A stretch of DNA of 25,151 nt from positions 1 through 25,151 of the IMG/VR virus record IMGVR_UViG_3300042987_001356; one strand, given 5' to 3'. Positions within the stretch are counted from its first letter, which is position 1. The number at the start of each line of letters is the position of its first letter. A program made the position numbers and the translations under genes. Below are positions 1,994 through 12,244 of the stretch, one piece after another. Below the pieces are notes generated by a model, which saw only the letters and a list, made by a program, of their open reading frames with translations, was not told the DNA's origin and did not search any database. This DNA comes from a virus.

Positions 1994-2178
1994 TGAGAAC
2001 ACCTCGGCTCTTTGTCTTGGTCGTACCAGCGGGCAGGCCCGAGGCAGCAGGCGCAGGCAAAGACCTCCGCCCACTGCGCTTCGTGGTCATCCTCTGGTGT
2101 CGCTTCGATGCGAGTAGACAGCACGTCGTACCGCTTCTCCATCGCCTCCTGAGTGACACCGTGAGTACAGGTAGCCAC
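1981..2178 (-). CDS. Small zinc-binding protein, 65 aa
   Basis: A GTG at 2178 overlaps the TAG stop of the helicase ATPase gene by one base, and GAAGAGG upstream serves as ribosome site. The product has an N-terminal CTHG, then FACACCLG and a C-terminal RCSHCPE, so two CxxC pairs separated by about 18 residues. It is another member of the run of small Cys proteins downstream of the helicase and is probably co-translated with it. Function unknown. Confidence 0.65.
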   Translation of the reverse strand: MATCTHGVTQEAMEKRYDVLSTRIEATPEDDHEAQWAEVFACACCLGPARWYDQDKEPRCSHCPE

Positions 2179-3635
2179 TAGAAGATAGCCTCTTCTTCCT
2201 TGACATAAGGAACTGTGAACTGTTCTCCCCTATACTCTGGAGACTGAACAGTTACTTCTTCTTCATTGAAGGTGGACTGCACACCCACAACTTCGTTGTT
2301 GTGGGTGGGTGTGCTGTCAGGCGTTGTCTCAATCAAACTGTTCGGGTCTTCATTGCGGAACACTTCGTTTTGGACAGACTCTGACAGGTCATAAAGAACT
2401 TTCCTGCCGTCACGCCCAGCCTGAGCGAACCGCTCCGTCCCAAGCACCTTCACCACGGTAGAGCGCGATGCTCCGATTCCCGCTGCAATCTTTTCCGCGT
2501 CTGCTGCCCCGAACAACTCTAGGTATTCCTCGACCTGCTCGGACGTGGACTGCTTCTTCTGTGCGGAAATCTCGACGAACTCGTTGGGCTTGGCCTTGCG
2601 GACAAGGTTCAATCCGTACTGGTCGAACACTAGTGCAATCTGTGTAAACGCCGTGTCCTTGCGGATGTCGTTCGCCTTGTCCACGCGCAGGCCGATGCCC
2701 AGCGTGTCGCCCTTGCTCTTGTCGTCGGTCATCAACTGCACCGTCACGTCGGCGGCAGCGTCGAACATCTGACTGCCGAACGTGTGCGACTCGTCACCAC
2801 GAGGGGTGTGCGCCAGCACCGCCCACGCAGCGGGCGAGAGGCTGTTCAGCGCGTCCATCGCCTTGTTCGCCGGGTCATTGTCGATGAGGTTGCCGTAGCC
2901 CATGCGGGACAGGGAGTCCACGAGGACGAACGACACGCCCTCCCGCTCCACCGTCCGCTGGATACCGTCAATCACATCGGGCAGGCTGCGCCCACGCCGG
3001 TCGAGGCGAAGCAACTCACGGCTGCGAGGCAGGCCGAGCGACTGGTTGATGTCACCGAGGCGCACGTCTACCGACTCAGCAGACCGCTCAAGGTTCACGA
3101 ACAGGGCAGGCCCTTGCTTCACCGGCCAGAACGTAGAGATGCCAGCGTCCACCGTGACGCAGAACAACATGCCGAGCCACGACTTACCACGACCGGGCGG
3201 CGCAAAGATGATGGTGCCACCACCCTCTACGACGAACGGGTTGATGACGAACTGTTTATACGTGCGCTCGTTGGCACCACCACGGCGCTCCGCTTCCTGA
3301 CTGCCAATCTCGTACTGCCACAGCCCACGCTGGAACAGCATCAAGTCCATGCTCATCCGTGCTGCGTCGTATCCGTTCGCAGTAAGGATGGCCTTCATCG
3401 CCTCCTTCTTGAAGATGGCATTGACCAGACGCTCGCGCTCCTCACGTCGGCCCACGTTGTACGTGTCCTCGTCAAGCGGGATAGCGCCACGGCCATGCTC
3501 ACGGAAGCCGATGCTCACGGTAGCGTGAACACCAGTGCGCTCGTTGCGCACGTTGGCTGCCTGATAGATGAGGTCGATGCCCTCGGCCTCGACGATAGAT
3601 TGAATGGCACCGTTGGGTGTGCGGTGATAGTCCAT
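2178..3635 (-). CDS. RecA-fold replicative helicase ATPase (DnaB C-terminal / RepA-like)
   Basis: This 485-residue protein has a Walker A loop at about 145-152 (APPGRGKS). A Walker B strand lies at 236-241 (FVLVDS), followed by a sensor-like segment (WAVLAHTPRGDESHTFGSQMFDAAADV), as in DnaB/RepA-type hexameric helicases (AAA_25-like). Residues 365-416 look like a winged helix (EQVEEYLELF...GASRSTVVKVL...GRKVLYDLS). The ATG at 3635 overlaps the stop of the DnaB-N gene (TGATG), so both are made together; a longer frame upstream is shadow. It probably unwinds DNA at the phage fork. Residues from about 420 onward are low-complexity and encoded by a sequence repeated at 11612-11800. Confidence 0.8.
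   Translation of the reverse strand: MDYHRTPNGAIQSIVEAEGIDLIYQAANVRNERTGVHATVSIGFREHGRGAIPLDEDTYNVGRREERERLVNAIFKKEAMKAILTANGYDAARMSMDLMLFQRGLWQYEIGSQEAERRGGANERTYKQFVINPFVVEGGGTIIFAPPGRGKSWLGMLFCVTVDAGISTFWPVKQGPALFVNLERSAESVDVRLGDINQSLGLPRSRELLRLDRRGRSLPDVIDGIQRTVEREGVSFVLVDSLSRMGYGNLIDNDPANKAMDALNSLSPAAWAVLAHTPRGDESHTFGSQMFDAAADVTVQLMTDDKSKGDTLGIGLRVDKANDIRKDTAFTQIALVFDQYGLNLVRKAKPNEFVEISAQKKQSTSEQVEEYLELFGAADAEKIAAGIGASRSTVVKVLGTERFAQAGRDGRKVLYDLSESVQNEVFRNEDPNSLIETTPDSTPTHNNEVVGVQSTFNEEEVTVQSPEYRGEQFTVPYVKEEEAIF
2203..2371 (+). repeat. Copy A of duplicated hairpin element (inside helicase gene 3' end)
   Basis: Three blocks in the same order and orientation match 11612-11800. Block 1 (2203-2243 against 11620-11661) is identical at 38 of 42 aligned columns. 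Block 2 (around 2279-2314) is a hairpin with the same TTCGTT loop. Block 3 (about 2335-2371) shares AACTGTTC and GGAACA...TTCGTTT. In this copy the sequence is read on the minus strand as the last ~65 codons of the helicase ATPase. Confidence 0.8.
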
Positions 3636-4105
3636 CAGAACATCCCCTCGTACTTGTCCACCCACTTGGACTCGGCACCGTAGCCCTGCTGCACCATCTT
3701 GGTTCCCGTCTTGATAAGGGCACGCCTCTCTGCGTACTCCTTCACCATCTTGGCCCACGCACCACAGCCGTATGCCGAGTAGTTCTCGTCCATCAGAACA
3801 AGCAGGAACGGCTCGGCATACAGGTGCGGGGCCAGTAGTTTATCAAGGGCGTCAAGGTATCCAAGTTCAGCGAGCGCATGGCACACAGTCGGCACAGTGA
3901 CAGGCTCGCCCCGGTGCCATAGCCAGCCGAACGCACGCCATACGGCACGGTTCTCTGGCACAAAGAAGCAAGCAGGGTCGAGTGTGTTTACACGTTCAGC
4001 CAGTGCAGTCGGCTCGTCGTTGAGTACCGCACCAATCAACTGCCTCTCTGCGCTGTCCGAGTGTGGCACCTCTCCGCGCCTCGGTGCAGCGTTAGGTGTT
4101 GTCAC
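3635..4105 (-). CDS. DnaB helicase N-terminal domain protein
   Basis: The 156-residue protein matches the N-terminal helical domain of DnaB: SAERQLIGAVLND near residue 18, then DPACFFVPENRAVWRAFGWLWHRGEPV, and further on VCHALAELGYLDAL. It also keeps the linker-like helix at the end (WAKMVKEYAERRALI...GTKMVQQGYG). In DnaB this domain forms the trimeric collar that binds primase, and the linker packs on the next ATPase subunit. Here the protein stops there and the ATPase follows as a separate gene with a TGATG junction. A GTG start at 4105 has a strong AGGAGG site. Together the two genes probably make one helicase. Confidence 0.75.
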   Translation of the reverse strand: MTTPNAAPRRGEVPHSDSAERQLIGAVLNDEPTALAERVNTLDPACFFVPENRAVWRAFGWLWHRGEPVTVPTVCHALAELGYLDALDKLLAPHLYAEPFLLVLMDENYSAYGCGAWAKMVKEYAERRALIKTGTKMVQQGYGAESKWVDKYEGMF

Positions 4106-4295
4106 CGTTCCCTCCTAATCCACTCAGAGCGCGCCGCAGACGATCCGCGTAGTCCCTGAAGCGGTCGCGTTCTGCTGTAAGGGAGTCGATGGCCTCCACC
4201 AGAATAGCAACGTCAGAAAGCGGGAAGCAGTTGTCTCCCCGTTGCAACCCCTCCCTGATCTCTGCGAGTCGGCGTACTGAGTCCTCTTGTGTCAT
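4092..4295 (-). CDS. Small coiled-coil protein, 67 aa
   Basis: The ATG at 4295 has an AGAGGTG ribosome site eight bases upstream. The product is helical with charged heptads (AIDSLTAERDRFRDYADRLRRALSGL), so probably a short coiled coil. The frame stays open upstream to a GTG at 4550, giving a 152-residue alternative whose extra part is hydrophobic and crosses an inverted repeat; the shorter form is preferred because of its ribosome site. It overlaps the DnaB-N gene start by 14 bases. It could be a helicase accessory, but nothing in the sequence proves this. Confidence 0.6.
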   Translation of the reverse strand: MTQEDSVRRLAEIREGLQRGDNCFPLSDVAILVEAIDSLTAERDRFRDYADRLRRALSGLGGNGDNT

Positions 4296-4312
4296 TGTGT
4301 AAACACCTCTCT

Positions 4313-4341
4313 GCTCCTGCGTGCTATTGAACGGATGAGTG
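4313..4341 (-). repeat. Left arm of 29-bp imperfect inverted repeat
   Basis: On the minus strand this reads CACTCATCCGTTCAATAGCA followed by CGCAGGAGC. It matches the plus strand at 4544-4572 in 26 of 29 positions; the three differences are all transitions. The arms enclose 202 bases. In the minus frame it encodes THPFNSTQE; the other arm in its plus frame encodes THPLNGTQE, so the frame is conserved between the arms. Confidence 0.85.
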
Positions 4342-4543
4342 CGGGCCTCCCGAATGAACGGCTCGCCCTGCGTTGCCGCAAGGTGAAAACACCAAACGTC
4401 GAATGTTCCAGCCGTGATGTGCGCCTTGAACTCTATTGCGCTCAGTCCGACAACGCCTCCCCAGCACGTATCAGACAGCAACACACCACACGCCACGTCG
4501 CCCGGGTAGACAACCCAAGATAGAAACGCTGCTGGAACCTGAC

Positions 4544-4572
4544 CACTCACCCGCTCAATGGCACGCAGGAGC
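4544..4572 (+). repeat. Right arm of 29-bp imperfect inverted repeat
   Basis: This is the plus-strand partner of 4313-4341, with three mismatches. It lies directly before the Thr/Pro repeat and its reading frame (THPLNGTQE) continues without a stop into that repeat. Such arms could permit inversion of the enclosed segment by recombination, or mark an old inverted duplication or an assembly artefact. Confidence 0.85.
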
Positions 4573-4588
4573 GCGTGCCAAGTTTTTT
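4560..4588 (+). terminator. Possible plus-strand intrinsic terminator
   Basis: A 7-bp GC-rich stem (GGCACGC at 4560-4566, GCGTGCC at 4573-4579) with a six-base loop is followed after three bases by six T residues (4583-4588). The form is that of a Rho-independent terminator for rightward transcripts. No rightward promoter or secure rightward gene is seen upstream, so its use is unclear; it could block antisense transcription into the operon. Confidence 0.4.
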
Positions 4589-4811
4589 AGTTACCCCGAC
4601 TCCGACTCCGACCACGACTCCAACTCCGACCCCGACCCCGACCCCGACCACGACCCAGACCACGACCCAGACCACGCCCACCACCCCGACCCAGACCCCG
4701 ACCGCGAACACGACCGCGACCACGACCCAGACCCACACCGCGACCCCGGCCCCGACCCCGACCACGACCCAGACCCAGACCCCGACCGCGACCACGACCG
4801 CGAACACTTGA
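4575..4811 (+). CDS. Thr/Pro-rich low-complexity frame (doubtful gene or fragment)
   Basis: A GTG at 4575 opens a 78-residue plus-strand frame that is almost all Thr alternating with Pro, Thr, Gln or Ala. It ends in TGA at 4809-4811. Several repeat units differ only by synonymous changes in this frame (ACT for ACC, CCA for CCG at about 4590-4640), whereas the same changes alter residues in the minus frames. This suggests the repeat once coded, or codes, on the plus strand. Such Thr/Pro tracts serve as flexible linkers in virion fibres. It lies opposite to all neighbouring genes, so it may be a displaced fragment. Confidence 0.3.
   Translation: MPSFLVTPTPTPTTTPTPTPTPTPTTTQTTTQTTPTTPTQTPTANTTATTTQTHTATPAPTPTTTQTQTPTATTTANT
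4590..4811. repeat. Hexamer-like low-complexity repeat (ACCNNG)n
   Basis: About 220 bases repeat a degenerate six-base unit, ACC followed by CCG, ACG, CAG or GCG. The minus strand is correspondingly G-rich with several GGGG/GGG runs two bases apart (GGGGTCGGGG type). A minus-strand frame starting at ATG 4833, two bases after the upstream gene's stop, reads through it as a Ser/Gly/Trp/Arg-rich 80-residue peptide ending at 4591. That leftward frame is a possible but less supported gene. Confidence 0.9.
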
Positions 4812-4835
4812 CCATTTGATAGTTTGTCGCCATCG

Positions 4836-5099
4836 CTACTTCAGAATCCCAAATGACTCGATGGCCGAAGTCTGCACGTACCACGGGCCGGGAAGCCGCT
4901 GGTAGTCCTTCCAGTCCTTGTCGTCGAATGGGCCTGTCTCGTAGACGATGCCTGCGTTCTCCAACAGAACGCAGGCATCGTTTACGCCCACAAGATTCCC
5001 CGTGTAAATGTAGTTTAGGCAGAACAGGGTCACTCGCTCACCGAGCAGCGCCAGCAACCCCTCACCATCGACCTCTGCCACGTTCATAATCTTTTTCAT
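4836..5099 (-). CDS. Conserved phage protein, 87 aa, unknown function
   Basis: The product (core LLGERVTLFCLNYIYTGNLVGVNDACVLLENAGIVYETGPF...WYVQTSAIESFGI) resembles, from memory, a small protein widespread in tailed phages and usually annotated hypothetical. Alternating hydrophobic strands and a glycine turn (YTGNLVGV) suggest a small beta barrel, perhaps Sm-like, but this is only a fold guess. The start has ATG at 5099 with GAGAGG and a nearer CAGGA upstream. It follows the SSB gene in the leftward operon with a 27-base gap, so it may be a DNA or RNA transaction accessory. Confidence 0.7.
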   Translation of the reverse strand: MKKIMNVAEVDGEGLLALLGERVTLFCLNYIYTGNLVGVNDACVLLENAGIVYETGPFDDKDWKDYQRLPGPWYVQTSAIESFGILK

Positions 5100-5126
5100 T
5101 TCCTGACTGTCCTCTCTCGTTACTGA

Positions 5127-5579
5127 CTAGAACGGCTCGTCGTCGTCGTACTCGGAGCCCACCTGCACGACAGGAGCCTCGTACTGCGCGGCGTACTGTT
5201 TCGCGCCGTTGAAGCCACGCTGCTTCGGCGCAGCGGTCGAGATGAACTTCACGCCAAGCCGCCCACCCTCGGCCAGCCCACGCGCACCAGACTTGCGCAC
5301 CGCATCCTGCACGGCCTTCTGCATCTGGCCCTTGATGTACAGCGTGCGGTTCCCGTCGTCGTCCTCGTCGTCACGCTCGTCAGTGTGAAGCGTCACCACC
5401 AACTGCATCATCGGGTCACCGTTGTCCCACGTCCGGGGCGTCCCGGTCTTGATGTCGGTCTGCTGCTTGACCTCCATCGACAGGATGGTGCCCACCACCT
5501 TGTCGCCCTCGGCCTCGAACTTGGCGGACTTGGCACCGCCGCCCATCAGGAAAGCGTTGGGGTCTGCGTAGTTAGTCAT
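5127..5579 (-). CDS. Probable single-strand DNA-binding protein
   Basis: This 150-residue protein starts with DPNAFLMGGGAKSAKFE and a strand-rich body (VVGTILSMEVKQQTD...MMQLVVTLHTD...RTLYIKGQMQKAVQDAVRKSG). It ends in a disordered acidic tip DDDEPF, the hallmark of bacterial and phage SSB tails that recruit replication partners (DDDIPF in E. coli SSB). It would coat single-stranded DNA during replication and recombination. The ATG at 5579 overlaps the stop of the upstream gene (TAATG), indicating coupling to it. The OB fold itself is inferred; the tail and the context near the helicase genes are the evidence. Confidence 0.7.
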   Translation of the reverse strand: MTNYADPNAFLMGGGAKSAKFEAEGDKVVGTILSMEVKQQTDIKTGTPRTWDNGDPMMQLVVTLHTDERDDEDDDGNRTLYIKGQMQKAVQDAVRKSGARGLAEGGRLGVKFISTAAPKQRGFNGAKQYAAQYEAPVVQVGSEYDDDEPF

Positions 5580-6019
5580 TACTTTTCCTCCATGTAAACA
5601 GTCAATGCTTCGCTGCCGGTGCCCGGCATCTCGAACTGTGCGATGGCGTCAGCCCACGATGCGCCCTGCTCCTTGCGGAAACGGCTCAGCATCGTGTGGT
5701 CGATACGCACCATGCCAGCGTTCGCCGCCTTGATGAGCGCGTCGATGCCGCCCTGCGTAGTGACGAGTGACACCACGTCGTATGTCGGTGTGCCCTTGCG
5801 CTCGGTAATCTTGGCCGCTGCACCCGTCTCCGGGTCACGCATCCAACGCTCATTAGTGAGCGCCATGTGCTGCTTGATCTGATCGACAGCAAACTTCTTC
5901 GCTGCCTCTAGTGGCTTCAACTCTTCGTTGATGTGCGCCACGCTGGTGATAAGGTCGAGGATGCGGCGCTCGCTGGCCGCATCCTGCTCACCGATGTAGT
6001 TGTCGAAGTCTGTAGTCAC
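5579..6019 (-). CDS. Hypothetical helical protein coupled to SSB, 146 aa
   Basis: The first half is helical and charged (ERRILDLITSVAHINEELKPLEAAKKFAVDQIKQHM), the second compact (TPTYDVVSLVTTQGGIDALIKAANAGMVRIDHTMLSRFRKEQGASWADAI). A GTG at 6019 with AGGTGG upstream is the start. Its stop overlaps the SSB start, so the two proteins are probably made in a set ratio. Similar proteins occur beside SSB-like genes in other phages in my recollection. A role in recombination or DNA end binding is a guess from position only. Confidence 0.65.
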   Translation of the reverse strand: MTTDFDNYIGEQDAASERRILDLITSVAHINEELKPLEAAKKFAVDQIKQHMALTNERWMRDPETGAAAKITERKGTPTYDVVSLVTTQGGIDALIKAANAGMVRIDHTMLSRFRKEQGASWADAIAQFEMPGTGSEALTVYMEEK

Positions 6020-6020
6020 G

Positions 6021-6212
6021 CTACCACCTCAACATAATGGTCAACGTCATTTGGTCACTGGACTGTCGCACTTCCACGAGTGCGTCATCCGGTGCGCCTT
6101 CTGCGCGCATCGTGTGGAGTGCGTCGACGATCCCAGAAACACGAGCCGGAACATTCAATGCCTGCATGTGGTGCGTCCGATAGATTCGGATGCCATCGGT
6201 CTGCGTAATCAT
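6021..6212 (-). CDS. Small hypothetical protein, 63 aa
   Basis: The product has a helix (ARVSGIVDALHTMRAEG) and a C-terminal strand pair (DALVEVRQSSDQMTLTIMLRW). ATG at 6212 is preferred because AGAGGTG lies nine bases upstream, as in other genes of this operon; a GTG at 6224 is possible but has no room for a ribosome site. It is packed directly before the 146-residue gene. No family recognised. Confidence 0.55.
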   Translation of the reverse strand: MITQTDGIRIYRTHHMQALNVPARVSGIVDALHTMRAEGAPDDALVEVRQSSDQMTLTIMLRW

Positions 6213-6242
6213 GTCGTCTACCACCTCTCTGCGATGATTGTA

Positions 6243-6578
6243 TCAGTCAACCGGCAATAGATCAAAGAGTGAATCCTGCCCGGTGTGGGAAACTTCTCGC
6301 AACTCTGAGTCGATCTCGTCCACGTCCTCGACGACAACGCGCGCCCACTCCGGGTGTCGGTCTGCCATCTGCAAGCCCATCATGAACGTGCTTGCCATGT
6401 GCTGCGCCTCGTCATCGTCACGCGACAGATCAGAGAAACGGATCGTCATGAACTGATAAACCACGGCAGACACGCCAGCGGTACGCATCAGCGCGCGGAT
6501 GACGTTCTTGTATTCCTCAGATGCTCCGTCCTCCTCCTCGTTTCCGAGTAGGTTTCGGATCTCGTCCTCGATGTTCAC
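6243..6578 (-). CDS. Acidic hypothetical protein with C-terminal clamp-binding-like motif
   Basis: The 111-residue protein is acidic throughout (NLLGNEEEDGASEEY near the N-terminus, VVVEDVDEIDSEL later). Close to its C-terminus it carries QDSLFDLL; QDSLF fits the bacterial sliding-clamp binding pentapeptide (QLSLF/QLDLF type). If real, it would bind the host beta clamp. The GTG start at 6578 overlaps the stop of the upstream gene by four bases (GTGA). No known domain was recognised in the main body. Confidence 0.6.
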   Translation of the reverse strand: MNIEDEIRNLLGNEEEDGASEEYKNVIRALMRTAGVSAVVYQFMTIRFSDLSRDDDEAQHMASTFMMGLQMADRHPEWARVVVEDVDEIDSELREVSHTGQDSLFDLLPVD

Positions 6579-6823
6579 TTGACGCGCGCCACGTACAGCG
6601 CGCCGTCAATCTTGGCGAAGCGCAGCGAGTACTTGCGGCCACCCTGATACGCGGTAGCGCGGAGCATCCCCTTCGCGTACGGCTCGCCCCGCACGAGGAA
6701 CTCATCCGGCACGCGCACGGGCTCGTCAATCACCAGCGACCGCACGAACGCAGTCCAGCCGCGATGCTGGATGCTCAGCGCGTTATCCCGGAACGTCTCC
6801 ATCGTCACAGTCTCGTTAGTCAA
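6575..6823 (-). CDS. Small hypothetical protein, 82 aa (TTG start)
   Basis: The start is taken as TTG at 6823 because a full AGGAGG ribosome site lies six bases upstream; a longer frame to 6895 lacks such a site. The product is a small alpha/beta protein with basic patches (RGWTAFVRSLVIDEPVRVPDEFLVRGEPYAKGMLR, then GGRKYSLRFAKIDGALYVARV). Its stop overlaps the next gene by four bases, so the two are probably co-translated. Function unknown. Confidence 0.6.
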   Translation of the reverse strand: MTNETVTMETFRDNALSIQHRGWTAFVRSLVIDEPVRVPDEFLVRGEPYAKGMLRATAYQGGRKYSLRFAKIDGALYVARVK

Positions 6824-6865
6824 CTCAAGCCTCCTGAATACCTGCGCCAATCCGACGCGCGCCGA

Positions 6866-6917
6866 GCGGGAGCCGAGGCTAGTAGACTCCCGCACGGCGC
6901 GCGGCGTACTGCCGCGC
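6866..6917. other. Two adjacent intergenic hairpins
   Basis: In the gap between the 55-residue and 82-residue genes there are two inverted repeats. The first is GCGGGAG (6866-6872) with CTCCCGC (6887-6893). The second is GCGCGGC (6899-6905) with GCCGCGC (6911-6917) around a five-base loop. Neither has a T-tract on the leftward side, so RNA stabilisation or processing is as likely as termination. Confidence 0.45.
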
Positions 6918-6927
6918 CGCCCTCCTG

Positions 6928-7095
6928 CTACCAGAACCGCTCGCCGTTGATGTACACGCGCACGTCATTATCAACGCACCAGCCGCCGAGGCTCGACACG
7001 ACCCACTTCACAGCCTCGGTTGCATCATCGAACTCGCCATGCACGCGCACGATTGAGTTCTCGTCGTTCGGGTACTCAATGTCAACAGTAGTCAT
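6928..7095 (-). CDS. Small hypothetical protein, 55 aa
   Basis: A 55-codon frame starts at ATG 7095 with a GAGAGAGGG ribosome site four bases upstream and ends in TAG at 6928. The product is a compact alpha/beta protein (a strand IVRVHGEF, a helix DDATEAVKWVVSSLGG, then strands WCVDNDVRVYINGERFW). The layout of strand, helix and two strands resembles many tiny phage proteins, but no family name can be given. It lies in the leftward operon after the 31-residue membrane peptide. Confidence 0.65.
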   Translation of the reverse strand: MTTVDIEYPNDENSIVRVHGEFDDATEAVKWVVSSLGGWCVDNDVRVYINGERFW

Positions 7096-7107
7096 TTCGC
7101 CCTCTCT

Positions 7108-7203
7108 CTAGAACGCGCCAGCGTACAGCCCGCAGAGCAGCACGCCCATGAACACGATGAACCCGAAGAAGAACACCTGTGCCAACTCAACAACTTCACG
7201 CAT
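7108..7203 (-). CDS. 31-residue single-pass membrane peptide (copy 1)
   Basis: ATG at 7203 begins MREVVELAQVFFFGFIVFMG and ends with LLCGLYAGAF. A hydrophobic segment from about residue 9 to 29 could span the membrane once, with a short charged N-terminus. It has a GAGGGGG ribosome site upstream. Its length, MRxxVExxQV start and AGAF ending match the peptide at 10639-10734, so the two are paralogues. A role at the host inner membrane (for example superinfection exclusion or a lysis aid) is possible but not shown. Confidence 0.6.
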   Translation of the reverse strand: MREVVELAQVFFFGFIVFMGVLLCGLYAGAF

Positions 7204-7234
7204 CACGCGCGCCCCCTCTTGTAGATTTACAGTG

Positions 7235-7492
7235 TTATACGTGGCGACCACAGCGGTACAAGTCAACGTCGATAGCAACCCCAGCAGCGGGACATTGAGT
7301 CCCGTCCTTGAGTACCTTCTGGCAGCGCGGAACCGGGACGTCACGGCCATTGACAGCGCGGTACGTGATCGCGGCGAACCCATCGGCCACCTTGATGACG
7401 CGACCGTTGGCCCGCCAGCCGATCCAGTTGTTGGCATTGAGCGGGTCGCCGCTCGAAACGATGGGCGTTGCATCGACAACCTTACGCATCAT
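7235..7492 (-). CDS. Small zinc-binding-like protein, 85 aa
   Basis: The 85-residue product has a strand-rich N-terminal part (NWIGWRANGRVIKVADGFAAITYRAV). A C-terminal Cys/His set follows (RCQKVLKDGTQCPAAG...LYRCGRHV), which could bind one zinc. The first ATG at 7492 overlaps the TAA stop of the upstream gene (TAATG), with GAGAGG seven bases upstream. It is followed by the membrane peptide gene after 31 bases. Unknown function; possibly nucleic-acid-binding. Confidence 0.6.
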   Translation of the reverse strand: MMRKVVDATPIVSSGDPLNANNWIGWRANGRVIKVADGFAAITYRAVNGRDVPVPRCQKVLKDGTQCPAAGVAIDVDLYRCGRHV

Positions 7493-7806
7493 TACTTGTC
7501 CTCTCCGGTAGCCTGAGCGATAGCGGCGAACGCAGCGTCCAGCGCCTCGTCGTCAATCGGTGTCCATTCCTGTTCTTCGGCGGGAACGCCTCGGAATGTG
7601 CGAGCCGTTGCCGCCAGTGCTTCCAGCGCCGCCAGTAGGTCTGGTGCTGCTGCGATGAGGCGGGCGTTAGCCTCGGAGTAGATACCATTTGCGACATGCG
7701 TCGTGTCGCGGTCGCCGTTGACATGCCAAATATCTACACTGACTCCCGGCGCGCGAGTAGCGGTCGCTCGGTAATCAGTCCACGGCCCCGGTGTGTGCAT
7801 AGTCAT
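7492..7806 (-). CDS. Conserved phage hypothetical protein with HTPGPW start
   Basis: The protein begins MTMHTPGPW and contains NARLIAAAPDLLAALEALAATA, a combination I recognise from many phage and prophage hypothetical proteins of about 80-110 residues. The helix of Leu/Ala repeats after the NARLIAAAPDLL motif is its constant core. No biochemical role is known to me. ATG at 7806 is used, with 7800 as an alternative; GAGAGG sites precede both. A 17-bp perfect hairpin lies about 45 bases upstream of the start. Confidence 0.8.
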   Translation of the reverse strand: MTMHTPGPWTDYRATATRAPGVSVDIWHVNGDRDTTHVANGIYSEANARLIAAAPDLLAALEALAATARTFRGVPAEEQEWTPIDDEALDAAFAAIAQATGEDK

Positions 7807-7849
7807 AGCCTCTCAGTCCTCTCACTAGCCTCGTCTGCGCCTGATCTGG

Positions 7850-7891
7850 CGCGCGGGACACTGGCGGGGGCCATCGCCAGTGTCCCGCGCG
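7850..7891. other. Perfect 17-bp hairpin in an intergenic gap
   Basis: The arms are 7850-7866 and 7875-7891 (CGCGCGGGACACTGGCG and its exact complement) with an eight-base loop. It is the most stable inverted repeat in the left arm. It sits between two leftward genes, with no T-run after it on either strand. It may limit readthrough, protect the 3' end of the upstream message, or be a protein-binding site. Confidence 0.8.
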
Positions 7892-7918
7892 GCATAGCAG
7901 CCGCGCCCCCGGTTGAGC

Positions 7919-8101
7919 CTACGCCGTGCGCTTGACTAGCAGCTGTTCGTCGTCAGCGAGTACCGATGAGGTCACAACGGTCTCGACCGGGATGAGCCCG
8001 GAGACGGTCAAGGCCATCTCGTAGAGCGCCTCGTGCAAGGCGAGCGCGTCCGGGCTCGCCTCGTCTGCATCCACCGACACGTTGATCACAATGGTCGCCA
8101 C
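7919..8101 (-). CDS. Small hypothetical protein, 60 aa
   Basis: The GTG start at 8101 is chosen over a longer frame because GAGAGG lies nine bases upstream and a promoter-like sequence (8151-8179) lies just beyond. The product has a strand (TIVINVSVDAD), a helix (SPDALALHEALYEMALTV) and another strand (VETVVTSSVL), so a small alpha/beta fold. No family recognised. It is the first gene after the promoter in its transcript. Confidence 0.6.
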   Translation of the reverse strand: MATIVINVSVDADEASPDALALHEALYEMALTVSGLIPVETVVTSSVLADDEQLLVKRTA

Positions 8102-8150
8102 GGTTCGTTCCTCTCTTGCGCCGTCTACTGATTGCCTCGGCGCTGTGGTC

Positions 8151-8179
8151 ATCATGCGCCTATGCGCTGCAGCTGTCAA
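8151..8179 (-). promoter_or_regulatory. Sigma70-like promoter P1 (leftward)
   Basis: On the minus strand a perfect TTGACA (8174-8179) is followed by a 17-base spacer and CATGAT (8151-8156, four of six to consensus). The surrounding gap is AT-rich compared with its neighbours. It is placed about 50 bases upstream of the 60-residue gene, as expected for a short leader. Confidence 0.65.
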
Positions 8180-8228
8180 CTATCAAAAACTAACGAAATC
8201 TAGCAAACTGCTGTTCGAAATAAGTGTT

Positions 8229-8597
8229 CTAATCAGCCGCGAGGATGCGCCGCGCAGCGTCGGCAACGTCAGCGCGCATCGCGCAGTAAGCGCCGTACGT
8301 GATTGCCTCGTCGAGGTCTCCGGCATGAGCCCAGCTGTATTCCTCGACCGCGTCGGCGTTGTCGGACAGCGAGCGCACGAGGCGAGCGCGCCACGTGTAG
8401 ACCACCCATTCGGAGCCGTCGGTGTACTCGTGTGCGAGGTCGTCGATCTCGTCCTCGGGGTTGTCCTCGTTGCGCTTGCGCGCCTCGTCCGCCACCCAGC
8501 GAGCGTAATCGCTCACGTCCGCGTAGTAGGACTGCCGCAGCACACGGATCGCGTCCTGTTCCTGATCCTCGGTGATGCGCGTGTTCGTCGTGGTCAT
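8229..8597 (-). CDS. Acidic hypothetical phage protein, 122 aa
   Basis: The 122-residue acidic protein has a DEIDDLAHEYTDGSEWVVYTWRARLVRSLSDN core; I associate the DGSEWV(I)YT pattern with a widespread phage hypothetical family. ATG at 8597 has GGGAGG nine bases upstream. The many Asp/Glu residues and helices suggest a soluble binding protein. No activity can be assigned. It stands alone between two intergenic gaps. Confidence 0.7.
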   Translation of the reverse strand: MTTTNTRITEDQEQDAIRVLRQSYYADVSDYARWVADEARKRNEDNPEDEIDDLAHEYTDGSEWVVYTWRARLVRSLSDNADAVEEYSWAHAGDLDEAITYGAYCAMRADVADAARRILAAD

Positions 8598-8691
8598 AGT
8601 ATCTAGCCTCCCGATGCTATCCCCTGTGCCATGAGCGGCACGCTAGGCGCGCGTACAGGTGCTGCACGTGCGCCCCGCGTGATGTTATGGG

Positions 8692-8856
8692 TTAGTACGA
8701 TTCCGCCCAGTCTGAAGCGTCTACGTACCACCGCCCGGAGTAGCCGACGATCCACGACGGGCGCAGCCCGCGCGTGTCGAGCATGATCGACGCTGGCCCT
8801 TCGCCCGTCTCGCGCTCGATCCGATCCTTGAGTGCGATAGCCTGCCGCTTAGTCAT
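8692..8856 (-). CDS. Small hypothetical protein, 54 aa
   Basis: A 54-codon frame runs from ATG 8856 (GAGAGG upstream) to TAA at 8692. The product has a basic N-terminal helix (TKRQAIALKDRIERETG) and a Trp-rich C-terminal half (PSWIVGYSGRWYVDASDWAESY). It follows promoter P2. No family recognised; a small DNA- or protein-binding role is only a guess. Confidence 0.65.
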   Translation of the reverse strand: MTKRQAIALKDRIERETGEGPASIMLDTRGLRPSWIVGYSGRWYVDASDWAESY

Positions 8857-8892
8857 GTCCTGATCCTCTCTCGGTTACCTTCGTTATTGGTG

Positions 8893-8922
8893 AGTATGAT
8901 CCCGGTATGTGTCAGCTGTCAA
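8893..8922 (-). promoter_or_regulatory. Sigma70-like promoter P2 (leftward)
   Basis: The minus strand has a perfect TTGACA (8917-8922) followed by GCTGACAC; the TTGACAGCTG start is shared with P1. A CATACT box (8893-8898) lies 18 bases on. The next leftward gene starts at 8856. Confidence 0.6.
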
Positions 8923-8931
8923 ACGCTAGTA

Positions 8932-9456
8932 CTAGTCGAGCCTACCGGTAGCGTGAGCCGTGATTCCGGCGTCCTGCAGCACGCGCGCCATGGCCTGAGC
9001 GTGCGCGATCTTGCGGTCGTAGGACTGCGAGTAGTCACTAATCCAAATATCAATCCCGCCGTAGTAACTGCGGCGCGCGTAGCCCTGCGCCGTCAACCAT
9101 CGCGCGAACGACGACGATCCAGGCCGGATGTTGACCCAGGCAAACCCGCATACGCCAGACGGGACATACCACGATTGCGTGATAGGCGAGGCATCGTCGA
9201 GTACGTCCGCGTGCTGATCGACAATCATCGGCGCGGGATTGCATGCTTCACCCGCGGCGCGTCCTGCCGCGTACGCGCGAGCGTACAACTCAGCGTGAGC
9301 GGCAGCCCGATCATCGCGAGCGGCGGCAGAATCGGCGACCATATCGCGCCATGCCGCGCGTGCCGCCTTAGCACAATCCGCGCAATAGCCTTTTCGTGAT
9401 CGCGCGGACGCGATCCGGCCGTCACCATTGACGCAATAGGCAATCGTCGTAGTCAT
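8932..9456 (-). CDS. Conserved phage hypothetical protein, 174 aa
   Basis: The N-terminal part has YCADCAKAARAAW (a Cys pair) and a long Ala-rich helix. The C-terminal part has WYVPSGVCGFAWVNIRPGSSSFARWL and GGIDIWISDYSQSYDRKIAHAQAMARVLQDAGI, which resembles a conserved domain seen in many phage proteins of unknown function. ATG at 9456 has a strong AGGAGGTGA site. Promoter P3 lies upstream. The conserved aromatic and Gly residues suggest a ligand- or nucleic-acid-binding surface, but nothing more can be said. Confidence 0.75.
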   Translation of the reverse strand: MTTTIAYCVNGDGRIASARSRKGYCADCAKAARAAWRDMVADSAAARDDRAAAHAELYARAYAAGRAAGEACNPAPMIVDQHADVLDDASPITQSWYVPSGVCGFAWVNIRPGSSSFARWLTAQGYARRSYYGGIDIWISDYSQSYDRKIAHAQAMARVLQDAGITAHATGRLD

Positions 9457-9479
9457 AGTAACTCACCTCCTGATAGTAG

Positions 9480-9507
9480 GTTATGCCGCGATATGTGACA
9501 ATGTCAA
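9480..9507 (-). promoter_or_regulatory. Sigma70-like promoter P3 (leftward)
   Basis: The minus strand has a perfect TTGACA (9502-9507), a 16-base spacer and CATAAC (9480-9485). The -10 box is weaker than in P1 and P2. It lies just upstream of the gene starting at 9456, like the other two promoters relative to their genes. Confidence 0.5.
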
Positions 9508-9510
9508 GTG

Positions 9511-9861
9511 CTAGCGGCCGCTATGCATGATTGCGTACGCGGCCGGGCCTTCAACCTCGCGCGAGCGGCCGCGTGAGTCATTCCATAGGCGATGCGCGCA
9601 TGCATTGCATGCGATCACGTATTCGACGTCCGCGCCATGATCGATCCGCACTAGGTTACGCGCGGCGCGTCCGCATGCCGATCCGTTATCGCGCGTAACC
9701 TCGCACGCGCCGCGTACAGCTGCGCCATATTCGCGGCATCGCGAGGCGTTCGCGCCGCGCGCATGCTTCCCCCAATGCCGCGCGATGCATCCAGTGTGGA
9801 TGCCGCCCATAAATGCGTAAATAAAACGTCCACAGCAGCGGCATTCTTCGTTCGAATACAT
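9511..9861 (-). CDS. Cys-rich zinc-binding-like protein, 116 aa
   Basis: ATG at 9861 is chosen because GAGG lies seven bases upstream; a longer frame to 9888 lacks one. The protein has about ten cysteines in groups (ECRCCGRF near residue 7, GCIARHWGKH, CREYG, GACEVT...ACGRAA, ACNACAHRLW). Several zinc-binding knuckles are likely. The ACNACAHRLW ending with His resembles the last part of an HNH/recombination-type zinc site but lacks clear catalytic residues. DNA around it is very rich in GCGC and CGCG. Function unknown. Confidence 0.65.
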   Translation of the reverse strand: MYSNEECRCCGRFIYAFMGGIHTGCIARHWGKHARGANASRCREYGAAVRGACEVTRDNGSACGRAARNLVRIDHGADVEYVIACNACAHRLWNDSRGRSREVEGPAAYAIMHSGR

Positions 9862-9892
9862 TGCTAGCCTCGCAATCCTGATAATCACCTAT

Positions 9893-9908
9893 GCGCCACG
9901 TCTGGCGC
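9893..9908. other. Short GC-rich inverted repeat
   Basis: GCGCCA (9893-9898) and TGGCGC (9903-9908) are separated by four bases in the 95-base gap between two leftward genes. It is a small hairpin without a T-run, so only a weak candidate for an RNA signal. Confidence 0.35.
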
Positions 9909-9956
9909 GGCGCGCGTACGTCGTAGTGACGTCCGCGCGGCCGCGGCATGCGTAGC

Positions 9957-10625
9957 CTACGCGCGCGCCTTGATTGCGGCCGTAGCAGCTGCCTTGCGAG
10001 CGCCATGCACCGCGAACGCGATCGTCGTGCCCGGTCGCATGCACAATCCGCAATCCGCGCACGATCGGCCGCGCGTCTGTTCGGGGCACGGCACGACGCG
10101 GATACCGTCGACGTCATACGCGCGATCACTTTTGTGAGAATCGACAACAATCGCGGCATCGTATCCGCGAGCATGCGCCGCGCGGACGTCGTCGGCCGTC
10201 TCGCACGACGCGCGGACGCTAACGGATTGCCACGACGCGCGCACGACGTCGCGCCATGCATGCGTATACGTCCACGCGCGGCCGCCGCCGCGTGCCGTAT
10301 AGCGTTCGGCCGCGTCCGAAACAATGCGAGCGGCATCGTCCGTAGGACAATCGCCGACAACGTGCAAGCGTAGCGGCCGCGTGCCAGAGAGAGAATCGAT
10401 CGCGTCCGCCTCGGCTCGCGCCACGTCCGCAATCGTCATACCGTCCGCGGCCGTCGCAAGTTGCCGAGTCGCGATGCCAGCGCGGCCGGATTCGGCGTAA
10501 CAACCAGCGCTGCGGAATGGGCAAGCGCTAGGGCAAGTGAGCTGCGCCGCGTACGTCGCAGACACTGCGCCGATCTTAGCGTTGCCGCTAACCTCGACGG
10601 CCGTAGCGGGCTTAGTGATTGTCAT
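9957..10625 (-). CDS. Cys-motif phage protein (CPxxCPFRxxGCYAE type), 222 aa
   Basis: The N-terminal part has NAKIGAVSATYAAQ followed by TCPSACPFRSAGCYAE (about residues 30-45). The middle has LRLHVVGDCPTDDAARI, AWTYTHAWRDVVRASW and SVSVRASCETADDVRAAHARGYDAAIVV, suggesting a beta/alpha barrel-like fold. A second Cys group lies near the end (PCPEQTRGRSCADCGLCM). The two Cys clusters could bind a metal or iron-sulfur centre. The pattern recalls phage DUF families distantly like Gp37/Gp68 (radical-SAM-like), but no SAM CxxxCxxC motif is seen. Start ATG 10625 has AAGAGG upstream. Reaction unknown. Confidence 0.7.
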   Translation of the reverse strand: MTITKPATAVEVSGNAKIGAVSATYAAQLTCPSACPFRSAGCYAESGRAGIATRQLATAADGMTIADVARAEADAIDSLSGTRPLRLHVVGDCPTDDAARIVSDAAERYTARGGGRAWTYTHAWRDVVRASWQSVSVRASCETADDVRAAHARGYDAAIVVDSHKSDRAYDVDGIRVVPCPEQTRGRSCADCGLCMRPGTTIAFAVHGARKAAATAAIKARA

Positions 10626-10638
10626 AGCCTGATCCTCT

Positions 10639-10734
10639 TTAGAACGCGCCCGCGATGATGCCGCAGTAGGCGACCGCGAGCCCCACACACGTTGCGACGT
10701 ACAGCACTTGTAGATACTCGACGAGGTTCCGCAT
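10639..10734 (-). CDS. 31-residue single-pass membrane peptide (copy 2)
   Basis: ATG at 10734 starts MRNLVEYLQVLYVATCVG and the peptide ends AYCGIIAGAF. Residues about 9-29 are hydrophobic enough for one membrane span. It shares length, MRxxVExxQV opening and AGAF ending with the peptide at 7108-7203. A GGGAGGGG purine run lies upstream. It precedes the Cys-motif gene by 13 bases. No family known to me. Confidence 0.6.
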   Translation of the reverse strand: MRNLVEYLQVLYVATCVGLAVAYCGIIAGAF

Positions 10735-10773
10735 CGTCTCTAGCCCCTCCCTGTATCGGCTTGCCATCATCAG

Positions 10774-10818
10774 GCGAGCGGTAGCCGTCCGCTCGCGACT
10801 GCCCCGCTATGGGGCAGT
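10774..10818. other. Two tandem 8-bp perfect hairpins in an intergenic gap
   Basis: Hairpin one pairs GCGAGCGG (10774-10781) with CCGCTCGC (10789-10796) around seven bases. Hairpin two pairs ACTGCCCC (10798-10805) with GGGGCAGT (10811-10818) around five bases. They are one base apart in the 91-base gap between leftward genes. Neither has a downstream T-run on the minus strand. Likely roles are partial termination, RNA protection or a paired protein-binding site. Confidence 0.7.
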
Positions 10819-10825
10819 TTCGGCG

Positions 10826-11071
10826 TTAGTCCTGCGCGCGATAGACGCGCGCCGCGTACCGAAACACGCGCGCGGCCCAGTCGCTGTACTCGGGTAGATC
10901 CATGGTCCCGATCTCAACGTCCGCGAGCGCGAGCCCCTCGCCGACGAGTTTGTTCGCTCGCCGGTAGTCCGCGGCGCATCCGGCGCTCACGCGCAACTCC
11001 TGAGCCGCATCAATCGCGCCAGCGAGCGCGTCGCCTACGGCCACCGGAGTAGTGATTCCTTCCATCATCAT
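10826..11071 (-). CDS. Small hypothetical protein, 81 aa; first gene of the left arm
   Basis: Three ATG codons in a row (11071, 11068, 11065) follow a GGGAGGG ribosome site; the first is given. The product is helical (VGDALAGAIDAAQELRVSAG, ADYRRANKLVGEGLALADVEIG) and ends in SDWAARVFRYAARVYRAQD. It is the first gene of the leftward arm after the large non-coding centre, the place where an early regulator often sits, but no DNA-binding motif is visible. Function unknown. Confidence 0.6.
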   Translation of the reverse strand: MMMEGITTPVAVGDALAGAIDAAQELRVSAGCAADYRRANKLVGEGLALADVEIGTMDLPEYSDWAARVFRYAARVYRAQD

Positions 11072-11371
11072 CGTTCGAGGCCCTCCCGCGTGTACCGGGG
11101 CAGCGGTGCCGCCCCCTGTGAGAGTGACTACACTACGGCCGGCGTTAGAGCGCAATATAGATATGCGTAGATTTTCGAAAAATCCCGAAAATGTTGGCGT
11201 GTGTCGGGATGCGAGGGGTGCGGACGGTATGGGCGCTCACGTCCACACTCTCGCCACAACGCCACCAGACGCGCCACAACGCGTGTCAGCGCCCGCCAGT
11301 GCGAGCGCCAATGCCGAGGGCCGGGGGCCGGATGCGGGTCACTAGGCGAGGCTAGCAGCGCGCCCCCTCGC
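11072..11371. other. Non-coding stretch upstream of the left arm
   Basis: I see no convincing gene here; open frames on either strand look like GC-driven noise. It holds a possible leftward -10 box TATATT (11154-11159, minus strand) without a good -35. A near-palindrome GATTTTCGAAAAATC lies just beyond it, near 11171-11186. This AT-rich patch in GC-rich DNA would suit an early promoter or an unwinding site. Confidence 0.45.
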
Positions 11372-11449
11372 ATACGGGTACCGGGTATGGGTACAGCCGT
11401 GATACGGGTACCCGGTAGGGGTATCGAATACCGGTACCGGGTAGGGGTA
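11372..11449 (+). repeat. Three 22-bp direct repeats (iteron-like)
   Basis: Copies start at 11372, 11402 and 11428. Each follows ATAC[G/C]GGTACC[G/C]GGTA with a GGGTA ending, and the copies differ at only a few positions. Starts are 30 and 26 bases apart. Each contains a GGTACC palindrome. Spaced direct repeats in a gene-free region between the two phage arms are typical of iterons at an origin or of repressor operators. Confidence 0.8.
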
Positions 11450-11611
11450 TGCGCACAACGGAGAGGAACGCTCGCGCGCGCGCGCGGGTTTTCTTGTGCG
11501 TCTCAAAAATTTACACGACACTTTTTGCTAACTTTTCCCTTGTCACACGTAACCCTTTAACTGTTCCCTAAACTGTTCCGGAACAGTTCCAGAACAGTTC
11601 GTTGCACACTT
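11450..11611. other. Non-coding stretch with alternating CG tract and AT-rich patch
   Basis: No gene is seen. A run of alternating CG (about 11469-11486) could form Z-DNA. It is followed by AT-rich DNA (about 11492-11540, TCTCAAAAATTTACACG, CTTTTTGCTAAC). The perfect 18-bp palindrome AACTGTTCCGGAACAGTT lies at 11571-11588, with half-sites at 11559-11567 and 11592-11599. The layout of repeats next to an AT-rich block resembles a replication origin. Confidence 0.5.
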
Positions 11612-11800
11612 CCTGCTTTACATAACGAACTGTGCAACTGTTCTTCCCTATACTCGGGAGAGAACAGCACAGTTCGTTGTAGTTCTTTTCTTTGAATGTA
11701 AAGGGGAGTGGCACACACAACTTCGTTGTTGTGTGTGTGTGCCGCTATGCGATCTGTGCGATGAACTGTTCCGTGTTTTGTCACGGAACAGTTCGTTTCG
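11612..11800 (+). repeat. Copy B of duplicated hairpin element (non-coding)
   Basis: This copy contains three inverted repeats. The first pairs ACGAACTGT and CTGTTCT with partners up to about 11681. The second pairs CACACACAAC (11712-11721) with GTTGTGTGTG (11728-11737) around TTCGTT. The third is a perfect 13-bp stem (11763-11775 with 11782-11794) around TTTTGT. It lies directly after the small terminase stop. No good gene is seen; the open frame on the minus strand is not frame-consistent with copy A along its length. Confidence 0.8.
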
Positions 11801-12244
11801 CTACTCGTTGTCGATAAGGCTTTGTCTGAGTGCCTTGATGTCTTCGATGCTCGTTCCCTCTGGTATCTGGAGGGTAACTTGGCGTGCATCGACCAGTGGT
11901 TCGCGGAACTCGGGGAATCGCTTGGCGAGAAGGTTGAGAGCGGCAACTGCTGCGCCGAGCGTCTTAGGGCCACCCTCGCGGGCTTCCCTGACAATCTCTA
12001 CACATTCATTGATAATGTACTCGACGCTGCCGACGTTTCGTTCAAACGCTTCCCTCTTAGCGGCTTCCATCCTCTTTCGAAGTTCTGGGTGCTTCTCTAG
12101 GCGCTGAGCGTTGTCTGAGATCTTTCCGGGGGTGACTGCCCTTCCTCCCGCCGCCTTGTACGCAGCAGATGGGCCGAGACCTTCAAGGCGCTTCTGGATG
12201 TACAACTCGTTGAACGCGGTAAGTTTTTCGTAGGCCATAGACAT
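11801..12244 (-). CDS. terS: Terminase small subunit
   Basis: The 147-residue protein has the N-terminal pattern of small terminases: LTAFNELYIQKRLEGLGPSAAYKAAGG, then DNAQRLEKHPELRKRMEAAKREAFERN. This is a DNA-binding helical domain comparable to LTxkQexFvxeyl...xAAixAGYs...a.rLlknpkv in Terminase_2-type proteins. A helical oligomerisation region follows. It recognises phage DNA and regulates the large subunit. Here it is encoded on the minus strand, divergent from terL, separated by only 39 bases, which is unusual. ATG at 12244 is given; the second ATG (12238) has the better AGG spacing and may be the true start. Confidence 0.75.
   Translation of the reverse strand: MSMAYEKLTAFNELYIQKRLEGLGPSAAYKAAGGRAVTPGKISDNAQRLEKHPELRKRMEAAKREAFERNVGSVEYIINECVEIVREAREGGPKTLGAAVAALNLLAKRFPEFREPLVDARQVTLQIPEGTSIEDIKALRQSLIDNE

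Follow-up and report, generated by a model that had tools for sequence, protein, structure and literature searches.

Phage lambda carries its origin iterons inside gene O, the gene of their own reader, and in P4 the ori iterons recur at about one per helical turn, with a second cluster, crr, kilobases off. The two clusters reported here lie in IMG/VR record IMGVR_UViG_3300042987_001356 (25,151 nt, hereafter the window), one copy, A, forming the end of a helicase gene on its 3' side, the other, B, in the spacer after the small terminase gene terS. Among the closest described systems, the winged helix of P4 alpha binds the ori repeats (PMC4234260), phage SPP1 has oriL inside gene 38 and oriR about 13 kb from it, both with repeats (PMC6316719), and the phage-inducible chromosomal island-like elements (PLEs) of V. 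cholerae exchanged origin and origin-binding domain jointly (PMC8263062). Judged from sequence, the chances are about even that copies A and B are clusters of one 8-bp putative site, B being a replication origin and A a second initiator cluster. Paired initiator clusters are already known, and the arrangement here is a variant of that of a few phages; what is unusual is the position of one cluster, at the 3' end of the helicase gene, and the natural specificity swap which the two phages provide.

As with oriL and oriR of SPP1, there are two similar repeat clusters at a distance of about 10-13 kb, one of them in a replication gene, and AT-rich DNA lies beside the noncoding one. SPP1, however, has a separate initiator, gp38, and an AT-rich element at both origins, whereas in the window no such element accompanies copy A, and it is the helicase that is the candidate reader. 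The likeness to P4 consists in a helicase with a C-terminal winged helix (here a predicted one), short sites that recur about once per helical turn next to AT-rich DNA, and a second cluster kilobases away; alpha differs in its primase domain and its ATPase family (AAA_25 here), and here a hairpin stands between sites. PLE RepA and its origin show the same joint swap of origin repeats and binding domain between relatives, but in PLEs three semi-palindromes, each about 30 bp long, make up the repeats, and a second in-gene cluster is not described for them. Lambda has its origin repeats in the gene of their reader, as would be the case here, but its origin is single and its iterons are longer.

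The window probably derives from a phage of an actinobacterium, since mycobacteriophage single-stranded DNA-binding proteins (SSBs) are the closest to its SSB-like protein. The genes diverge next to terS: leftward lie terS itself and the early genes, rightward the large terminase gene (TerL) and those for structural proteins. The main comparison partner was G001, a near-complete relative genome of 38.5 kb, with 94% identity to the window in the helicase and 98% in TerL. Copy B was also found in three further contigs (L007, L008/L015 and L010). More remote are relatives with about 85-87% TerL identity (L017-L022, of which L022 is genome G006 and its record stops 88 nt past the terS stop), and the distant relatives G007-G011 have a different terS layout and contributed nothing to the comparison.

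Two site clusters and their joint change

Copy A (2203-2371, minus strand) encodes helicase residues about 424-480, and copy B (11612-11800, minus strand) is its noncoding counterpart. The short repeated sites in and beside both copies had been overlooked in the preliminary description of this DNA. In the window they read AACTGTTC/GAACAGTT, and AACTGTTC occurs in 11 copies against 0.72 expected. Clusters of sites are found only at A and B in the window and in G001, the density in both genomes being 24 per kb in A and B together against 0.3 per kb elsewhere. The helicase 3' end has 4 sites; when it was recoded synonymously 5,000 times, the mean was 0.33 and 0/5,000 recodings reached 4.

The counterparts in G001, in both copies, are nearly all AA[CG]TGTG[AG]. 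Counts of TGTTC/TGTGA are 4/1 in A and 8/1 in B of the window, against 0/3 in A and 1/9 in B of G001; for A[CG]TGTTC versus A[CG]TGTG[AG], the difference between the genomes has p = 0.0014 for copy B and p = 0.14 for copy A alone. In copy A, the change of sites altered helicase residues 428, 434, 463-467 and 472-475, while the DNA of the hairpin between these sites is nearly unchanged. Because numerous sites change jointly, at both loci and irrespective of strand, we strongly infer that a single trans-acting DNA-binding protein reads both clusters and that its specificity differs between the two phages. Gene conversion between the copies is an unlikely source of the joint change, because copy-specific bases are kept while the sites change (15 copy-specific columns, 5 genome-specific and 0 crossed).

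Each copy has an inner block and an outer dyad. The inner block of copy A (2211-2253) has AACTGTGA at 2211+ and AACTGTTC at 2218+ and 2246- around the invariant CCCTATACTC (2228-2237), and that of copy B (11628-11674) has sites at 11628+, 11636+ and 11667- around the same CCCTATACTC (11646-11655). The outer dyad consists of AACTGTTC at 2336+ and AAGTGTTC at 2358- in copy A (2336-2365), and of AACTGTTC at 11764+ and 11786- in copy B (11764-11793), with a spacing of 22 nt start to start in 4/4 copies (A and B of the window and of G001).

Copy B is further accompanied by a five-site array (11559-11611), with sites at 11559+, 11571+, 11581-, 11592- and 11604-, spaced by 10-12 nt. Five sites are found in G001 as well (35821+, 35832+, 35843-, 35853-, 35865-), and also in L022, where they are spaced by 11, 10, 12 and 11 nt. 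The AT content beside B is 62% in 60 nt against a window mean of 43%; this AT-rich flank (about 11490-11550) contains TCGTGTAAATTTTT (11505-11518, minus strand), which is conserved after the sites in those relatives with a readable spacer, and the AT-rich TCGTGTAAATTTT adjoins the array in the window and G001 and also follows the terS repeats in L017-L021. Moreover, the operons diverge from just beside copy B, and in G001 the cumulative GC skew reaches its minimum at a distance of about 2 kb. In L007, terS and copy B are separated by an additional kinase-like gene (2747-3118). Different short repeats directly follow terS in L017-L022, and no hairpin was seen where their spacer is readable.

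With regard to the copies as wholes, most of what had been described before was confirmed. They lie 9.4 kb apart in matching order and orientation, G001 has both at corresponding places, and the element is conserved as nucleic acid although one copy is coding and the other noncoding. The 38 of 42 identical columns given for the first block (2203-2244 versus about 11620-11662) correspond, in a gapped count made by eye, to 38 identities and 4 mismatches, but one 1-nt gap is needed; the best ungapped match is 27/42, still the top one within the window. Both copies have the hairpin CACAAC-TTCGTT-GTTGTG, with a compensatory stem change from C-G in A to A-T in B. It lies at 2282-2311 in copy A (core CACAAC-AACGAA-GTTGTG on the minus strand) and at 11712-11741 in copy B, on the minus strand in each, and its 5' arm on that strand has 4 additional nt in all copies. 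The statement that the reading frame is not kept was right overall: in the window, the hairpin (HNNEVV) and the inner block (SPEYR) share one frame in both copies and the left half is off-frame, while in copy B of G001 the frame is lost. The expectation that relatives conserve the hairpin was borne out for the five closest contigs, in which its core is invariant, but not at about 87% TerL identity, where it is absent. Deletion of the DNA between the direct repeats, which had been suggested, could in principle occur, yet neither genome has lost a copy.

The helicase winged helix as candidate reader

The gene holding copy A (2178-3641, minus strand) encodes a helicase-type AAA_25 ATPase (Pfam AAA_25, E 5.5e-17), and its start is overlapped by the gene of a separate DnaB N-terminal-domain protein (3635-4105, minus strand). 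The pair looks like a split DnaB-like helicase in which the DnaB N-terminal domain is a small protein of its own. Acidic C-terminal tips of SSB type were also seen, DDDEPF on the SSB-like protein (5127-5579) and EEEAIF on the helicase. Of a set such as that of SPP1, with separate genes for initiator, helicase loader and DnaB helicase, the DnaB-N protein and the AAA_25 ATPase were all that was recognised, and many early genes have no family match. No primase domain was found in the helicase by Pfam or NCBIfam, and weak PHROG primase matches fall in its ATPase region.

Between the window and G001, helicase codons about 355-434 have diverged in DNA while the flanks are about 95% identical. This swapped tract (2364-2563) has sharp borders; its DNA is 67-76% identical to that of G001, compared with about 95% outside it, and inside it lies a predicted winged-helix domain (2394-2546, minus strand, residues about 366-416). 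The predicted fold comprises three helices and a two-strand wing, with a core pLDDT (predicted local distance difference test) of about 80; its matches to winged-helix structures have low Z, the matches listed did not include the origin-binding domain of P4, and the G001 domain has a weak match to an IclR-type helix-turn-helix (HTH). Comparison of the two genomes shows that the predicted winged-helix domain has been exchanged between the phages together with the sites. Whether it reads them is, from the model and the comparison, an evenly balanced question. The helicase is favoured as reader because of the position of the domain, the kind of site and the precedents of SPP1, P4 and the PLEs. 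If so, the helicase winged helix would bind the phased five-site array in copy B, the AT-rich DNA next to the array would open and the helicase would load there, while copy A, inside the helicase's own gene, might act as an auxiliary origin or as a distant regulatory site.

Several observations weigh against this origin model. Dyads and hairpin are present in copy A, but the five-site array is missing there, as is an AT-rich block comparable to that of copy B (60-nt windows reach at most 55%), and the model accounts for neither the hairpin nor the invariant GAGTATAGGG. GC skew tracks gene direction and is, hence, weak evidence. The DNA-binding domain of TerS has been exchanged as well. Moreover, two helicase orthologues were found, so that the tracking of sites by their reader is seen in one pair: G001 was the sole match when phage records, viral contigs and related records were searched, and an ssb scan aimed at the helicase of the L017 group gave a single new contig, L054, without the system.

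Other possible readers of the sites

The main rival explanation, possible but on the unlikely side, is that TerS reads the sites, copy B being a pac or cos site and copy A another such site, which TerS rings might bring together with B as proposed for T4. Repeats follow terS in all close relatives, and residues 1-64 of TerS (12053-12244 within terS, 11801-12244, minus strand) form a swapped DNA-binding domain with a predicted SF6 TerS fold (TM-score 0.83 normalised to 4zc3). The DNA of this N-terminal tract is 50-66% identical between the window and G001 against 94% for the rest of the gene, with a sharp border. One site per helical turn would also fit DNA wrapping a TerS ring. In T4, gp16 favours the 3' end of gene 16, its own gene, and a model in which two pac sites are synapsed has been proposed (PMC3012670), although phased 8-mers are not part of the description of the T4 sites, and these are not linked with a helicase gene. 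The fit of TerS is poorer, since in a comparison covering six TerS types the recognition helix fails to follow the sites: L017 and L021 have common sites, yet share 2/12 recognition-helix residues (L021 with a deletion there), and the window and G001 have differing sites, yet share 6/12. In addition, a pac site within a helicase gene 9.4 kb off would be unexpected, and the exchange of the TerS domain could instead concern a pac that, like that of SPP1, overlaps the DNA coding for this N-terminal domain. The specificity of TerS was called unclear and controversial in a 2022 review of small terminases (PMC9611059).

It is less probable again that a phage transcription regulator uses the sites as operators, the invariant CCCTATACTC serving as a -10 element. 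In copy A and copy B alike, inverted sites flank TATACT, which differs by one base from the -10 consensus, and an early promoter-like motif of the relatives, TTGNNN-N17-CATACT, has a similar -10 by eye. However, no -35 lies at the right distance, promoter calls gave none at copy A or B, and transcription from a promoter in copy A would either oppose the helicase gene or begin within it. The sole clear HTH gene (1429-1683) was rejected as encoding the site reader, its recognition helix being identical in both phages. A T7-like promoter, TATAGGGA, for a phage RNA polymerase was rejected too; no such polymerase was recognised by eye in the open reading frame lists of G001, and the centre of the motif is near-symmetric.

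Only a slim chance is given to a dual reading, in which the sites would be recognised by the winged helix of the helicase as well as by the N-terminal domain of TerS, and origin, packaging start and both readers would have been exchanged together.

A structured RNA (a put- or nut-like antiterminator, or a terminator) or a mobile hairpin element, as proposed in the preliminary description, now appears very improbable. There are two hairpins with invariant loops and stems changing in pairs, and the copy B structures are unusually stable compared with dinucleotide shuffles (z -3.9 to -7.6). In copy A, however, the stability is unremarkable, as 6% and 30% of synonymous recodings fold equally well as its two hairpins. 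No Rfam match was obtained, and no terminator was called at the hairpins. The 8-mer changes jointly at more than 10 sites on both strands, alike outside the stems, and RNA stems need no such change. Mobility is opposed by the occupancy of only two loci, unchanged in both genomes, and by the searches for further carriers, which found none among 2.9 million viral contigs or in GTDB genomes; TerL gave no match in the GTDB genomes either. The 18-nt hairpin core was found in three other viral contigs without the remaining element, apparently by chance.

Least probable of all is a host protein as reader, with the phages using different hosts: the concerted change needs just one reader, host or phage, but an exchanged phage domain beside the sites is a simpler one, and a host reader would leave both domain exchanges unexplained.

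Neighbouring repeats and implications of the exchange

Other repeats occur in these genomes. GTGTAAAC/GTTTACAC is scattered genome-wide, with 27 copies in G001 (1.05 expected) and 7 in the window (0.54 expected; at 2642, 3986, 4297, 13991, 20186, 20318 and 24122); it is also frequent in G002-G006 and nearly absent from G007-G011, and is reminiscent of stoperators. Arrays of GAACN4GTTC, which we take to resemble actinobacterial LexA (SOS) boxes, are present in the spacer after copy B in G001 (35061-35748) and in L017 (1132-1389). They are absent from the window, which has GGGTACCGGGTA repeats (11368-11449) where its relatives have these arrays. Upstream of the relatives' first early gene, a conserved promoter-like motif, TTGNNN-N17-CATACTACGT, was noticed by eye in L004 (about 2560-2590) and in the spacers of L017 and L020, and none was seen in the window spacer. 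In addition, a GAC-rich 12-nt tandem repeat (4590-4810), open in several frames, is mostly missing in G001.

As for the two clusters, the pair of genomes represents a natural domain-swap experiment, in which close relatives differ in the site code at two loci and in two candidate DNA-binding domains. The question at stake is whether a helicase reads its own origin within its own gene or TerS recognises phased sites. If both domains were to read the sites, one site code would serve replication as well as packaging in these phages.

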